A DNA stretch of 64,000 bases, taken from the NCBI RefSeq assembly GCF_021531315.1, contig NZ_JAFBIQ010000006.1, positions 1-64,000 of the forward strand. The letters run 5' to 3'. The notes under the pieces were generated by a model, which did no database searches, was not told the origin of the DNA, and saw nothing but the letters and a program-made list of their open reading frames with translations. The stretch comes from Oscillibacter valericigenes. GTDB lineage: Bacteria; Bacillota; Clostridia; Oscillospirales; Oscillospiraceae. Position numbers and translations under genes: made by a program. Positions 32,249 to 53,887 of the stretch are shown one piece after another (position 1 is the stretch's first letter; each line of letters begins with the position of its first letter).

Positions 32249-32348
32249 AAAAAGACACTCCTTTTGGTCATATTCCTTGAAAGAACGAGTCTTCCAAGGT
32301 GCATGACGCAAAAAGAGCGTGGAAATTGCGTGATAACAGCGCGCAGCA

Positions 32349-32463
32349 CATCTTCTCTCATCCGGACTGTGACCGTCGGTACCGGAATTTCACCGGGTCG
32401 TGCAGCAAAAAAGCCGCTTGCGGACTATGACCGCCGGTGGGGAGTTTCACCCCGCCTCGAAGA
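32349..32463 (-). promoter_or_regulatory. FMN riboswitch (RFN element)
   Basis: On the minus strand the conserved blocks occur in order: GGGGTGAAACTCCCCACCGG, CGGTCATAGTCCGC, GACCCGGTGAAATTCCGG, GACGGTCACAGTCCGGATG and GAGAAGATG. These are the junction sequences of the six-stem FMN aptamer. It controls ribU. No U-run terminator is seen before the start codon, so control may act on translation; ACGCAA/TTGCGT and CCTTG/CAAGG pairings are present in the platform. Confidence 0.95.
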
Positions 32464-32529
32464 CCAGTATTTCAAGTTTGGCTAAAGCATAGCACAGCGC
32501 AGGGAAAAATGCAAGGGGAAATTTTGTTC

Positions 32530-46746: not shown

Positions 46747-46890
46747 AAAAAGCGCTCTGCCGAACCGACAGAGCGCGAAAACTTTTGCTTTCCCTCATCT
46801 TTCGATTCGTTCGACGGATTTGGCACCTTGCATTGCAGGTTGTCGTGGTATCATCGGGCCGTTCCCTCCACCACTCTTGATGAAGTATGA
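46747..46890 (-). promoter_or_regulatory. SAM-I (S-box) riboswitch of metK
   Basis: On the minus strand the S-box blocks appear in order: ATCAAGAG, GGTGGAGGGA, GGCCCGATGA, CAACCTGCA, AGGTGCCAAATCC and GATGAGG. An intrinsic terminator follows (stem 46752-46776, GCGCTCTG/CAGAGCGC, then TTTTT), a normal OFF switch. Confidence 0.95.
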
Positions 46891-48797: not shown

Positions 48798-51740
48798 TTA
48801 CGCGAAGAGGTAGCCGTACTCGCCGCGCAGGGTGAAGATCAGCGCCTCAATGTCGACCGGCAGGTCGTTGTCGGAGGTGGAGAGGTCATAGTCGCGCTCG
48901 TCCGCCATGCGGACGCGGACATGCTCGCCGTCGAGGAAGAGGACGCCGGGGTTCGTGCTCTCGGCCATATCCTCCGCCGTCTGGAAGAGGGTGAACTTAT
49001 CGTGGCAGGGCTCGCTGGCGTAGGGGCAGAACTGCGTGCAGTTGCCGCACTCGTTGCACAGCTTGTCGATGTGGACGATCTGGTGGCTCTCGTCGGGCAT
49101 GACGATGGCGACATTCGCGCGGTTCGGGCAGGAGTCGACGCAGTTCTCGCAGATGGTGGAGCATTGCAGGCAGCGCTCGCCCTCGCACTTGCCGCTCATT
49201 CTGAGAATGCCGTGCTTGGCGATGGCGTCGGCCTCGGTGATGAAGGCCTGCGCGGGGATCTCATACTCGTAGGGCGCGCCGATCACAGCCTCGGCAAAGC
49301 GGGCGGCGTCGGCAATGCCCTCGACCACCGTGGCGGGGCCGCGGTGCGCGTCGCCCGCGCAGTACACGCCCTCAAGGTTGGTCTCAAACGCGGGACCCTT
49401 GCGCTCCATCTCGATGCCGTTCGATGCCATGAGGTCGGAATCGACCTGCTCGCCGACCGCGGAGAGCACGAGGTCGCAGGGAATGGTGAACTGCTCGCCG
49501 GACCTCATGGGGCTGCGGCGGCCGCTCTCGTCGGGCGCGCCGAGCACCATCCTGTCGCACAAAAGCTGCCCCTTGGCCTGCTTGACGGGGGCGGCGAGCT
49601 CGATGAACTCCACGCCGTCGGCGATGGCGAGCTGCAGCTCGTGCTCGTCGGCGGGCATGAACTTCTTCGTGCGGCGGTAGAGAATGGTCGCGTGCGCGCC
49701 CATGCGCTTGGCGACACGGGCAGCGTCCATCGCGGTGTTGCCTGCGCCGACGACCACGATGCTGCCGGAGAGGTTGGGCTTGACCTGCTTTTTCTCCTTC
49801 TTCATCCACTCAATGACGCCCTGCACATTGCCCTCGATGTCGAGCTTACCTGCCTTCCACGCGCCGGTGGCGAGGAGGATGTGGGTGTAGCCCATCTCCT
49901 TGAGCTCGGCGACGGAGGGGGCGGGTTTGCCGCACTTGACCTCGACGCCGTACTTCATCATGAGGGCAATGTCCTTGTCGATGGCCTCGTCGCTGATGCG
50001 GAAGGAGGGGATCACATAGCGCGGCACGCCGCCGAGCTTGCGCTCGCGCTCGAAGATGGTGGTCTCGATGCCGGCGCGGCCGCAGAAGTACGCCGCGGCG
50101 ATGCCTGTCGGGCCGCCGCCGACGATGGCGACGCGCTTGCCCTCGATGCGCTCGGGCTGCTTGATAGAGGCCATCAGAGCGTTGTAGCCCTTTTCGGCGG
50201 CAAGGAGCTTGGTGTCGCGGATGTGGACGCTCTCTTCATAGAAGTTGCGCGAGCACTTGCCCTGACAGCGGTGGGCGCAGATGGTGCCGGTGATGAAGGG
50301 CAGGGCGTTCCTCTCCGTGATGAGACGGAGCGCGGGGCCGTAGAGCCCCTTGCGGCACAGCTCGATGTACTCGGGAATGTCCTGCTCGATGGGGCAGCCG
50401 CCCTTGCAGGGGGCGATGAAGCAGTCGAGCCACGGCACCTGCTCGGTGGACTTGCGGCTGGGGAGCGGCTTGATGGGCTTGAGATGGTGATGGTCCGTGC
50501 GGGCCGCGGCGGCGAGGTCGGAGATGGCGGCGGAGTCGGTGCCGGCAAAGGCGCGATACTCCATCGGCTCGACCTTCTCGACCATCTGAAGCAGGCGGTT
50601 GTAGCCGCCGGGCTTCAAAATCGTGGTGGCGACGGTGATGGGCCAAATGCCCGCAGCAAAGAGCTTATCGCAGTTGAAGTACTCCGCGCCGCCTGCGAAC
50701 GAGATGCGCAGCTTGCCGCCGAACGCGCGGGAGATGCGGCTGCACATCTCGATGGTCAGCGGGAAGAGACTGCGGCCAGACATATACATTTCTTCGTTCG
50801 GAAGTTCGCCGCGTGTGGTGTCCACGGGGAAGGTGTTGGAGAGCTTGAGACCGAACTCCAGACCCTCCTTGTCCGCGAGCTTCTGCAAACGCTCGAACAT
50901 CGGCACCGCGTCCTCCCACTGGAGGTCCTCGTTGAAGTGATGCTCGTCGAACACGATGTAGTCGTAGCCCATGGAGTCGAGGATCGTGCGGGCGGTCTTG
51001 TAGCCGAGGATGGTGGGGTTGCACTTGACGAAGGTGTGCAGGTGCTTTTTGGTGAGCAGATAGCTTGCGATGCGCTCGATCTCCTGCGGCGGGCAGCCAT
51101 GGAGCGTGGAGACGGTGACCGAGCGCGAAACGCGCGGGGAGATGTGCGCGATGAAATCGCGCTCGGCGGGGAAGAGCTCGGTGAGGACACGCTTGCACTC
51201 CTTAAATTGCGGCGTCTTGCCCGCATCCATCATGTTGTCGATGTAGCTGTTGACCTTGCGGCCCTTGATGCCGTCTAAGTCATAGCCGACGGACATATTG
51301 AACACGAAGCCGTCGGGATCGCCGAGGCCGTAGACCCTGCTGATGGCCTTGAGCGCACACCACGCCTTGATGTACTCGTCCTGCGCCTGCTGCACGGTCA
51401 GCTCGGTGGACCACTCCTGATTGTAGCCCTCGTCGGCGGCGAGGATGCAGGGGCGCGGCACGCAGGCGGCAAGCTCAGCGCCGTCCATCTTCTGTACGGT
51501 CTTGACCTCGAAGAAGCGCGCGCCGGCAAAGTAGGCGGCGATGATGTTCTGCGCGAGCTGGCTGTTGGGGCCGGCGGCGGGGCCAAATGGGGTCTCGATG
51601 CGCTCGCCGAAGATGGGCAGGCTCTTGCCCGTGGCCTCATATTTCTTGTGGACGCCGAAGATGTCGCCGCTCTGGGCGTACTCGGTCACGATCCAGTTCA
51701 TCAGGGATGCGAACGGAATGGGATACATTTTTTCAGACAT
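48798..51740 (-). CDS. ygfK: YgfK-type putative selenate reductase/flavin-FeS oxidoreductase
   Basis: 980 residues. The N-terminal TIM barrel resembles dihydroorotate dehydrogenase; the middle is a GltD-like FAD/NAD(P) domain with CFIAPCKGGCP iron-sulfur ligands, VAIVGGGPTGIAAAY and VVVGAGNTAMDAA nucleotide-binding loops; the C-terminus has ferredoxin clusters (CLQCSTICENCVDSCP and CNECGNCTQFCP). The plan and length match YgfK of E. coli (about 1032). YgfK and SsnA occur together in clusters linked to anaerobic purine or urate breakdown. AAAGGAGG precedes the ATG. It lies 27 bp after ssnA. Confidence 0.9.
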   Translation of the reverse strand: MSEKMYPIPFASLMNWIVTEYAQSGDIFGVHKKYEATGKSLPIFGERIETPFGPAAGPNSQLAQNIIAAYFAGARFFEVKTVQKMDGAELAACVPRPCILAADEGYNQEWSTELTVQQAQDEYIKAWCALKAISRVYGLGDPDGFVFNMSVGYDLDGIKGRKVNSYIDNMMDAGKTPQFKECKRVLTELFPAERDFIAHISPRVSRSVTVSTLHGCPPQEIERIASYLLTKKHLHTFVKCNPTILGYKTARTILDSMGYDYIVFDEHHFNEDLQWEDAVPMFERLQKLADKEGLEFGLKLSNTFPVDTTRGELPNEEMYMSGRSLFPLTIEMCSRISRAFGGKLRISFAGGAEYFNCDKLFAAGIWPITVATTILKPGGYNRLLQMVEKVEPMEYRAFAGTDSAAISDLAAAARTDHHHLKPIKPLPSRKSTEQVPWLDCFIAPCKGGCPIEQDIPEYIELCRKGLYGPALRLITERNALPFITGTICAHRCQGKCSRNFYEESVHIRDTKLLAAEKGYNALMASIKQPERIEGKRVAIVGGGPTGIAAAYFCGRAGIETTIFERERKLGGVPRYVIPSFRISDEAIDKDIALMMKYGVEVKCGKPAPSVAELKEMGYTHILLATGAWKAGKLDIEGNVQGVIEWMKKEKKQVKPNLSGSIVVVGAGNTAMDAARVAKRMGAHATILYRRTKKFMPADEHELQLAIADGVEFIELAAPVKQAKGQLLCDRMVLGAPDESGRRSPMRSGEQFTIPCDLVLSAVGEQVDSDLMASNGIEMERKGPAFETNLEGVYCAGDAHRGPATVVEGIADAARFAEAVIGAPYEYEIPAQAFITEADAIAKHGILRMSGKCEGERCLQCSTICENCVDSCPNRANVAIVMPDESHQIVHIDKLCNECGNCTQFCPYASEPCHDKFTLFQTAEDMAESTNPGVLFLDGEHVRVRMADERDYDLSTSDNDLPVDIEALIFTLRGEYGYLFA

Positions 51741-51767: not shown

Positions 51768-53111
51768 TTAATACTCGCGGTGATTGAGGTCGCCCCAGAG
51801 TTTCTTCGCGGCCTCGAGGATGTGGGCGTTCTCCGCCTCCTCGTCGATGCCCACCAGCTGACGATCCAGCATGAGGGTCTTACCGGCGGCGATGGTGGTC
51901 TGGCACTGACGGCCCGTCATGCCGAAGATCATGTGGCCGTCGATATTCTCGTCGGAGAAGGGGGTGTAGGGCTTGTAGTCCATCACGATGATGTCCGCCG
52001 CGGCCCCGGCCTTCAAAACGCCCAGCGTATCGGGGAAGTACTTCTCGCCGATCTTGGCGTTGTTCTTAAAGAGCATATCCGTGACCTCGCACCAGCCGAC
52101 ATTGGGCAGGCAGTTCTGGCTCCGCTGGGAGCAGAGGGCCACCTTGAGGGATTCGAGCATATCGTTGGTGTAGGCGTCGGTGCCCATGCCCAGCAGGATG
52201 CCCCGCTTGTAGAGCTGGAGCACCGGGCAGATGCCGATGGCGTTGCCCATGTTGGATTCCGGGTTGTTCACCACCATGGTGCCGGTCTCCTGAATGATCT
52301 CCATTTCGGCGGTGTTCACATGGATGCAGTGGCCCAGAATGGTCTTGGGGCCGAGGATGCCGTGGTCCTGCAAACGCTGGATGGGGCGGCGTCCGTAATT
52401 CTGCAAGCTGTCGTACACATCGTTCATGCCCTCGGAGACGTGGATGTGGTAGCCCGTGCGGCCGTTGTTGGCCGCGGCCATGCGGTCAAAGGTCTTGTCG
52501 GAAATGGTGAACAGCGCGTGGCCACCGAACATGGCCGAGAGCATGGGGTCCTTGTTCTTTTCGCATTCCGTGATGAAGTCGGCGTTTTCCTGGATGGCCT
52601 GCAAGCACTTTTCCTCGCCGTCCCGGTCGCTGACCTCGTAGCACAGGCAGGAGCGCAGGCCCAGACGCTTGCTTTCCTCCGCAATGGTGTGGAGGGTGCC
52701 GGGGATCTCACCGTAGCTGGCGTGGTGGTCGAAGATGGTGGTCACGCCCTGCTTGATGGAGTCGATGTAGAGGGCGATGGCGCTGGCCCGTGTGCCGTCC
52801 ATCATCAGATGGCGGTCGATGGCCCACCATGTTCCGTCCAGCACCTCGTAGAAGTTGGTGGGGTTGTTGCCCACGATGGAAAGGCCCCGGGCGAGAGCGG
52901 AGTAGATGTGGGTGTGGGCGTTGATGAGGGCGGGCATGATCACGCCGCCCTTGGCGTCGATGATCTCCGCCTGCGGGTATTTGGCTCTCAGAGCGGCCTC
53001 CTCGCCGACCTCCACGATCTTCGCGCCCTCGTAGGCCACCGCGCCGTGTTCGTAGTAGCCCTGACCCTCCGGGTCGCGGGTGATAAGCCGTCCGTTGGTG
53101 ATGAGCTTCAT
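51768..53111 (-). CDS. ssnA: SsnA-type aminohydrolase
   Basis: 447 residues, amidohydrolase superfamily. Metal ligands are visible in ALINAHTHIYSALARGL, in HIHVSEGM, in LGHCIHVN and in GTDAYTNDM. It is the SsnA family, named from an E. coli stationary-phase gene and found beside ygfK in purine-degradation clusters. AAGGAGG lies before the ATG at 53111. The leader contains a terminator and alternative structures, so purine or redox status may control it; the substrate is not proven. Confidence 0.92.
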   Translation of the reverse strand: MKLITNGRLITRDPEGQGYYEHGAVAYEGAKIVEVGEEAALRAKYPQAEIIDAKGGVIMPALINAHTHIYSALARGLSIVGNNPTNFYEVLDGTWWAIDRHLMMDGTRASAIALYIDSIKQGVTTIFDHHASYGEIPGTLHTIAEESKRLGLRSCLCYEVSDRDGEEKCLQAIQENADFITECEKNKDPMLSAMFGGHALFTISDKTFDRMAAANNGRTGYHIHVSEGMNDVYDSLQNYGRRPIQRLQDHGILGPKTILGHCIHVNTAEMEIIQETGTMVVNNPESNMGNAIGICPVLQLYKRGILLGMGTDAYTNDMLESLKVALCSQRSQNCLPNVGWCEVTDMLFKNNAKIGEKYFPDTLGVLKAGAAADIIVMDYKPYTPFSDENIDGHMIFGMTGRQCQTTIAAGKTLMLDRQLVGIDEEAENAHILEAAKKLWGDLNHREY

Positions 53112-53161
53112 AATGCGTTCCTCCTTGGTGTGATCGTTTTGACTGATACTGCGGGGATAAC

Positions 53162-53260
53162 AAAAGGCGCTTCAAGCGAGTCTCACTCGCCCGAAACGCC
53201 AGCGTTTCTGCCGGAGTGATAGTTTCAGCCCGTGCGCGCAGCACTTCGTTACAGCTATCA
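53162..53260 (-). promoter_or_regulatory. Terminator/antiterminator leader of ssnA-ygfK
   Basis: On the minus strand: a TGATAG/CTATCA closing stem (53255-53260 with 53217-53222) with an inner GTGC/GCAC hairpin, then GAAACGC/GCGTTTC (53193-53208), then a long terminator stem (53166-53200) followed by TTTT. GGCGTTTC cannot be in both the middle and the last stem, so the leader can switch. No known riboswitch class was recognised. Confidence 0.65.
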
Positions 53261-53278
53261 GTCTTGGATTGTGGATTT

Positions 53279-53307
53279 ATTTTACAGGAAAGCGGGAACA
53301 ATTTCAA
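53279..53307 (-). promoter_or_regulatory. Promoter of ssnA-ygfK
   Basis: Minus strand TTGAAA (53302-53307), a 17-bp spacer and TAAAAT (53279-53284). A leader of about 160 nt follows. Confidence 0.7.
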
Positions 53308-53392
53308 TGGAAATTTCGTCAAAATCCGTGAAATGACCGGCGTGAAAACGGAGAAATCGCCCTTGGATTTTTGTGCAAAGCGATAAAAAAAG

Positions 53393-53545
53393 AAAAAAGC
53401 TGCCCCGCAGCGGCCGTGCAGACCCCGTCAAACCTGCACATGAGTTGCAGGTGGGTCGCCTCTGTCCGGTTTTACTGCTTCCAACTTCCAGCCGCAAAAT
53501 GCAGCCGGGAGGCCTGCAAACCACCGGAGCGTACCAGCGTCCCGT
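53393..53545 (-). ncRNA. Candidate structured RNA with terminator
   Basis: A GC-rich non-coding stretch. On the minus strand, TCCGGT/ACCGGA (53523-53528 with 53465-53470) encloses a 9-bp hairpin (53488-53508), followed by a GACCC-CCTGCA/TGCAGG hairpin (53421-53457) and a GCTGC/GCAGC terminator (53399-53411) with TTTTTT. A 6S-like RNA is one guess. The 5' end and promoter are not fixed. Confidence 0.4.
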
Positions 53546-53599
53546 ATGACGAAATGTGGGTTTATAAAGAGCCTGTCACGCACCCCGCAGGGCAGGAGC

Positions 53600-53887
53600 T
53601 TATTCCTCTTCGTCCGCCATCAGCTGCTCCATAAAGAGGTCGTAGACCTCGTTGAGCTCGTCCTCGTCGAGAATGTTCGAGAGCAGCTCCTCGCCGCCGA
53701 TCTGCTCGCTTTTGAGAATGATGAGGCCGTATTCGTCCTCATTTTCCTCCTCGCCCTCTTCCACAACGGGGAAAAAGGCCATGTAGGTCGTGCCGTTGTG
53801 CTCGAGCGCGTCTACATATTCCAGCTCGATGTCGTTGCCCTCGTCGTCCGTCAGCGTGACGAAATTCGGGCCGTAATCTTCACTCAT
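53600..53887 (-). CDS. DUF1292 family protein (YrzB-like)
   Basis: 95 residues, very acidic, with the DUF1292 pattern NFVTLTDDEGNDIELEYVD and the following YMAFFPV. The family often sits beside the Holliday-junction resolvase and IreB genes in Firmicutes, but here it stands alone. GGAGGAGG precedes the ATG at 53887; the upstream frame has no ribosome binding site. Function unknown. Confidence 0.85.
   Translation of the reverse strand: MSEDYGPNFVTLTDDEGNDIELEYVDALEHNGTTYMAFFPVVEEGEEENEDEYGLIILKSEQIGGEELLSNILDEDELNEVYDLFMEQLMADEEE

Follow-up and report, generated by a model that had tools for sequence, protein, structure and literature searches.

What might the leader RNA upstream of the ssnA and ygfK genes of Oscillibacter valericigenes respond to, and in which direction? 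In the window (the whole stretch of DNA that was analyzed, 64,000 nucleotides of contig NZ_JAFBIQ010000006.1), this leader occupies positions 53162-53307, and all of the features described for it lie on the minus strand. The original prediction was of a switch-like leader preceding purine-degradation genes, and curated protein models identified the genes with scores over their cut-offs. By homology, ssnA (51768-53111, minus strand) encodes an aminohydrolase of yanthine degradation (TIGR03314, 527.2 bits against a cut-off of 455.5; NF005540, 599.9 bits against 444), and ygfK (48798-51740, minus strand) encodes a yanthine-reducing iron-sulfur flavoenzyme (TIGR03315, 1245.7 bits against 835.3).

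A scan with Rfam covariance models identified the leader as ssnA RNA (RF03031), so that the earlier statement that it resembles no known riboswitch class does not hold. The match, at 53217-53264, scored 69.1 bits against a gathering cut-off of 37.3 (E = 3.3e-17), ran the full length of the model (positions 1-48) and had no nonstandard pair marked. It covers a 48-nt conserved, aptamer-like domain with its flanks and ends at 53217, leaving a gap of 105 nt before the start of ssnA at 53111. No T-box, SAM, FMN, guanine-type, or other Rfam leader was matched at 53050-53650 up to E = 10, and on this ground T-box, SAM, FMN, and guanine-type identities were rejected. The ssnA RNA family reportedly stems from the motif set of Weinberg et al. 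2017. By its match and its conservation, the window leader is a real copy of a known orphan family; a literature search over partial texts, to which the family's presumed source paper did not belong, returned no ligand for ssnA RNA.

The promoter expected from the original prediction was found by consensus scan as TTGAAA-17-TAAAAT at 53307-53279, which would place the transcription start near 53272. Promoter-like sites numbered 2 in 1.5 kb versus 0.7 (SD, 0.9) in shuffles, and terminator-like sites 3 in 1.5 kb versus 1.7 (SD, 1.3); taken alone, the consensus scans of the window promoter and terminator are weak. The fold of the leader had a z score of -2.0, with equal stability in 8 of 200 shuffles. 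The above-chance status of the leader rests on the Rfam match and on conservation.

The core of the RNA (53226-53257) is a hairpin of two helices, P1 (53257-53253 with 53230-53226) and P2 (53244-53241 with 53235-53232), with a conserved internal strand of 8 nt, GUAACGAA (53252-53245), between them and a single G (53231) opposite that strand. The closed stem described earlier corresponds to a helix that we call P0, formed by UGAUAG (53260-53255), which overlaps the P1 5' strand, and CUAUCA (53222-53217), which overlaps the antiterminator strand UCACUC. The antiterminator, taken as the lowest-energy structure at nt 91 with P1 and P2 forced, spans 53183-53219 and has two helices, UCACUC/GAGUGA (53219-53214 with 53188-53183) and GAAACG/CGUUUC (53208-53203 with 53198-53193). 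The intrinsic terminator (53162-53200) consists of a 16-bp stem (53200-53166) followed by UUUU (DNA, TTTTGTT). Its 5' arm shares 53198-53193 and 53188-53185 with the antiterminator, and the two structures are therefore mutually exclusive, as had been proposed.

We propose, with a probability of roughly one-half, that ssnA RNA is a transcription-terminating ON riboswitch for urate or yanthine that controls genes of reductive urate degradation, the polarity being suggested by comparison of leaders and the ligand by the pathway. Control of the terminator in cis by the leader is very probable. ON polarity, as judged from the leaders compared, is probable, and the signal is likewise likely to be a small molecule; that this molecule is urate or yanthine, as the pathway suggests, has about an even chance. 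Family membership, the parts of the leader, its linkage to genes, and the mutually exclusive pairings are established at the level of sequence.

In the proposed mechanism, the nascent RNA would first close P0 (UGAUAG/CUAUCA), which would block P1 and occupy part of the antiterminator strand. Without ligand, the terminator would form and ssnA-ygfK would stay off. The ligand would bind in the P1-P2 domain, where the GNAACG(A/G/U)A strand lies opposite the single G; binding would hold UAG in P1 and so release CUAUCA. UCACUC could then pair with GAGUGA, the terminator would be blocked, and RNA polymerase would read into ssnA-ygfK.

At nt 57 in the stepwise folding of the window leader, P0 led P1 plus P2 with a margin of about 4 kcal/mol (-10.8 versus -6.8 kcal/mol). 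This lead was 3.5 to 4.7 kcal/mol at nt 86 (-22.4 versus -17.8), at nt 98 (-28.4 versus -24.9), and at the end of the leader (-41.0 versus -36.3), so that ligand binding would have to supply some 4 to 5 kcal/mol. At nt 91, P1 plus P2 with the antiterminator (-23.2) was level with P0 (-22.8). When folding at nt 91 was unforced, a third fold, neither P0 nor aptamer plus antiterminator, was lowest (-24.9), and we lowered our confidence in a urate or yanthine ON riboswitch because of it. The finished terminator was some 15 kcal/mol more stable than the aptamer-plus-antiterminator state; the choice between them would therefore have to fall during transcription.

To compare leaders, we surveyed genomes for RF03031 matches at E up to 0.001. 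The window's own genome held one copy. Within the family, 110 of 400 genomes carried the RNA (103 over the cut-off), and within the order 18 of 394 did (16 over). For the class the figure was 6 of 391, where the single match over the cut-off was that of the window, and for the phylum it was 4 of 398, where 2 were over, the window's match being one of them. A scan of named genomes for the core pattern found at least 117 stretches, 80 of them listed; among the matches listed, the hosts were mostly Oscillospiraceae or unclassified Clostridia and included Flavonifractor plautii, Oscillibacter, Intestinimonas, Dysosmobacter, and Pseudoflavonifractor. The ssnA RNA of F. plautii ATCC 29863 (L180) scored 47.3 bits. 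A pattern match in Devosia (L163) had no RF03031 match over the cut-off and was taken as chance. Removal of 3 duplicate loci left 125 oriented matches, from which 10 weak ones, all below the Rfam cut-off, were dropped (L096, L098, L100, L125-L129, L131, and L132), giving 115 leaders; L017, L092-L095, and L097, which also scored under the cut-off, were retained because their core pattern matched. The 115 leaders comprise 76 distinct cores, or 86 with one flanking base per side, and since they come from related species, the counts that follow are not independent.

In these leaders, the first gene under the RNA is ssnA in 108 of 115, NfnA-like in 3, and hyuA in 1, with 3 cut by contig ends. Every ssnA leader with at least 2 kb downstream (63 of 63) has ygfK after ssnA. 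The hyuA locus (L070) matched TIGR02033 at 551.8 bits; the three NfnA-like loci (L076, L089, and L093) have near-identical starts, with the NF004862 assignment coming from a scan of L093 only. Across the 400 family genomes, 105 had both the RNA and ygfK, 19 ygfK only, 5 the RNA only, and 271 neither, so ygfK was over the cut-off in 105 of 110 genomes with the RNA versus 19 of 290 without it. By pattern, 16 of the 124 ygfK genomes have a readable ssnA-ygfK pair without ssnA RNA (in L278, about 200 nt upstream only could be read), which indicates that the pathway does not need the RNA; contig ends cut the locus in 3 of the 19 ygfK-only genomes, and an Rfam scan to E = 0.1 found no ssnA RNA in 8 of the 19.

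In Escherichia coli, reductive urate degradation runs from urate to yanthine through XdhD and from yanthine to ureidomethyl-hydantoin through YgfK together with SsnA (PMC12507026). Yanthine is 2,8-dioxopurine, the product of urate reduction; its role in the pathway and the enzymes were described only in 2025 (PMC12507026). In another report, ygfK and ssnA are among the urate-induced genes common to distant gut bacteria (PMC12990295). One genome (G703) carries three ssnA RNA sites: the first precedes ssnA, after which ygfK, XdhD-like, and YgeX genes follow on the same strand; the second precedes hyuA; and the third precedes an NfnA-like gene, with YgeW some 5 kb away. Its XdhD-like match (G703:C16:16279-18885, L250) contains one in-frame TGA, which could be a sequencing error, a pseudogene, or recoding. 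The window's genome encodes an XdhD-like protein (58 to 59% identity, contig 34), a HyuA-like protein (49%, on the window's contig), and a YgeW-like protein (75%), with no match to YgeX over the cut-off. The HyuA-like gene (G000:C89:82790-84154) lies beyond the window at a distance of about 30 kb from ssnA; no ssnA RNA was seen ahead of it, the genome search having given one RNA, at ssnA.

Since the RNA precedes the yanthine step, hyuA, and an electron-transfer gene, it would most simply sense the input of the pathway, urate or yanthine. The original guess of a purine ligand is in this respect better founded than before, as yanthine is the compound that the E. coli enzymes convert (PMC12507026), with the ligand itself being argued from the pathway. 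A narrower version, to which we give a low probability, is that ssnA RNA is a natural yanthine sensor, an ON switch that would commit gut bacteria to breaking urate down reductively and would coordinate several transcription units. Its terminators would have arisen several times out of strands belonging to the aptamer.

The alternatives to a urate or yanthine ON switch overlap in part, and their odds need not sum to one. The one that survives best, and that we regard as a serious minority possibility, keeps the same RNA and ON logic and assigns another ligand: a later intermediate (ureidomethyl-hydantoin or diureidopropionate), xanthine, or a labile selenium or molybdenum cofactor of the dehydrogenase. 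One site precedes hyuA, which acts on a later intermediate; a selenium-dependent xanthine dehydrogenase (TIGR03311, 1256.2 bits) lies downstream of ygfK in L073; and old selenium names are attached to SsnA and YgfK. Among the 115 leaders (3 unreadable), however, the first gene under the RNA is never a selenium or cofactor gene, and inducers are commonly the inputs of a pathway, which also counts against a different ligand.

Conservation of the core bears on whether a metabolite or a protein is bound. Over the 86 distinct cores, 15 of 35 alignment columns, unpaired ones included, are invariant; the conserved strand has the consensus GNAACG(A/G/U)A, and P1 and P2 are paired in 97.3% of cells. 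The check set by the original prediction, covariation among homologous leaders, did not go against it: two-sided changes occur in 4 of 9 pairs against a shuffled mean of 2.2 (5 of 500 shuffles as high). The covariation score of 0.146 was reached by 0 of 500 shuffles (0.118) and dropped to 0.042 or less on sliding, with the caution that related sequences can surpass such shuffles without structure. With a core this constant, in which two P2 pairs and one P1 pair are unchanged throughout, the covariation evidence is modest. Each of the 61 window-type leaders has a promoter-like site (shuffled mean, 25.3), as do 27 of 53 leaders of other types (shuffled mean, 18.2), and in 41 of the 61 the -10 box ends exactly 21 nt ahead of the aptamer core. 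One genome (G311, L099) has tandem ssnA RNAs at 1636-1683 and 1805-1852; each RNA has a separate terminator arm, paired with strands of that RNA's aptamer (equaled by 5 and by 0 of 300 shuffles), which suggests separate platforms rather than one platform common to two aptamers.

Protein antitermination is exemplified by HutP and LicT, and a protein could recognize a short hairpin in which a single strand is conserved. At 22 of 115 loci, an upstream open reading frame (ORF) on the opposite strand resembles a regulator, which we take to be of the PAS/HTH kind (for example in L009, at -898 to -259 relative to the match); the one that was scanned matched no NCBIfam family. These ORFs were picked by length, which gave many on the wrong strand, and were used as candidates only. 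Binding of the RNA by a protein instead of a metabolite is nonetheless unlikely. Among the 22 regulator-like loci, 1 (L130) is of the window's type, in a search that usually covered up to about 1.5 kb upstream with crude ORF picking; moreover, the core combines a nearly constant unpaired strand with loop letters that vary, as small aptamers do.

We next consider polarity, for which the expression platforms carry the argument in favor of an ON switch. A hairpin with a U-run lies within about 112 nt downstream in all 115 leaders, a count made without a shuffle control and with about nine doubtful picks by eye (L023, L028, L057, L068, L073, L079, L083, L099, and L118); the picks come from a single-hairpin scan that replaced a first scan in which multibranched folds had been allowed. 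In 24 leaders, the picked terminator has a 5' arm that engages 4 nt or more of the aptamer core in pairs. The resulting direct-overlap set was taken as 25, in which L057 looks mispicked and L099 was added by eye. Twelve of the 25 beat their shuffles at up to 5 of 300 (L013, L019, L076, L081, L084, L087, L089, L093, L099, L111, L112, and L120), L114 follows with 11 of 300 shuffles as good, and 12 are indistinguishable from shuffles. The terminator arm uses the P1 5' strand and the conserved strand in L019, L076, L089, L093, and L099; P2 5' through P1 3' in L013, L081, L084, L111, and L120; and P2 3' with P1 3' in L087, L112, and L114. As picked, these terminators take part of P1 or P2 and thus exclude the folded aptamer.

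A second arrangement, the P0 type, comprises 61 of 115 leaders, including that of the window. Because the type was chosen by its CUAUCA-like downstream strand, the informative side is the 5' strand, which consists of six bases reaching into P1, UGRUAG or, in one leader, GGAUAG. All 6 pairs of P0 are kept in each of the 18 distinct sequence combinations of the 61 leaders, and P0 has changed and is still paired in L064 (CUACCA) and in L116 (CUAUCU with GGAUAG). P1 opens with UAG in 61 of 61 P0 leaders versus 9 of 54 others, as would be expected for a strand serving two helices. CUAUCA extends into the strand of the antiterminator, whose helix is CACUC/GAGUG in most leaders and ACACCUAUCA/UGAUGGGUGU in the L008 group. 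P0 thus shares strands with both the aptamer and the antiterminator, such that it would block both, and holding the aptamer would free the antiterminator. Of 91 leaders, 35 had antiterminator helices that passed a shuffle test; in the window's type 23 of 60 did, and P0 passed in 41 of 60 of that type. In the window itself, P0 was better than shuffles (0 of 60), and the inner antiterminator helix was no better (0.45 of 60). Leaders of neither kind number 30 of 115 and have no clear polarity; in 14 of these 30, the best antiterminator helix begins no more than one base away from where P1 ends. The direct overlap and the P0 arrangement both point to an ON switch, as far as coupling can be read from pairing.

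The reverse polarity, in which ligand binding favors the terminator, has precedents: the NMT1 xanthine/urate RNAs turn genes off (PMC7373994), and all four purine riboswitches of Clostridioides difficile, which are guanine-type, are OFF switches (PMC11477304). A test of equilibrium coupling between aptamer and terminator over the 115 leaders classed 32 as exclusive, 25 as antagonistic, 50 as neutral, and 8 as cooperative, and the neutral value for the window (0.02) would also suit an OFF switch; we set this test aside, given poor terminator picks and a finished terminator that wins in the window, and it lends no support to our model. An OFF switch is rather improbable, since direct-overlap terminators consume part of P1 or P2 and could not be favored by a folded aptamer, and since the controlled genes are degradative. 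That the leader is a fixed attenuator without any signal is very improbable: the invariant columns counted above, unpaired ones among them, are ones that a fixed terminator does not need.

As a member of its family, the window copy is ordinary: it shares the full-length model match, the conserved core, and the place before ssnA, and nothing sets it apart. Among characterized systems, a likeness is seen in the NMT1/xanthine riboswitch (PMC7373994 and PMC8266621), which is also a small hairpin with a conserved internal junction and a link to purine catabolism and which binds xanthine and, more weakly, urate. NMT1 differs in being proteobacterial, OFF, and likely translational (PMC7373994), whereas ssnA RNA has a proposed terminator-based ON design, and the conserved strand of NMT1, as numbered in PMC8266621, differs by eye from that of ssnA RNA. 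NMT1 was not among the 7 Rfam matches up to E = 10 at 53050-53650, in an Rfam copy where its presence was unconfirmed by name. Guanine-type purine riboswitches and their xanthine variants (PMC9295807) have purine ligands in common with the ligand proposed for ssnA RNA. Unlike ssnA RNA, the purine-binding RNAs of the guanine type that enter this comparison are built on a three-way junction.

What is new here is a reading of the expression platform, a polarity, and a pathway-based ligand shortlist for an orphan RNA family; the shortlist became possible because the controlled enzymes were characterized only in 2025 (PMC12507026). If urate or yanthine is sensed, the RNA would account for the switching on of urate removal in a group of gut Oscillospiraceae, would bear on gout and uricolytic probiotics, and would offer a ready-made urate or yanthine biosensor.

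Other structured RNAs lie in the same window. By the same scan, an FMN riboswitch (32346-32468, minus strand, 95.4 bits) and a SAM riboswitch (46792-46886, minus strand, 75.3 bits) are likewise leader RNAs, of other Rfam families and with other genes; the SAM riboswitch opens an ORF that by eye resembles S-adenosylmethionine synthetase. A 6S RNA (RF00013, 71.7 bits) occupies 53398-53596, like the ssnA promoter on the minus strand, with about 90 bases between its end and that promoter downstream, and this order, 6S RNA and then the ssnA promoter, is repeated in two loci of the same genus (L005 and L051).
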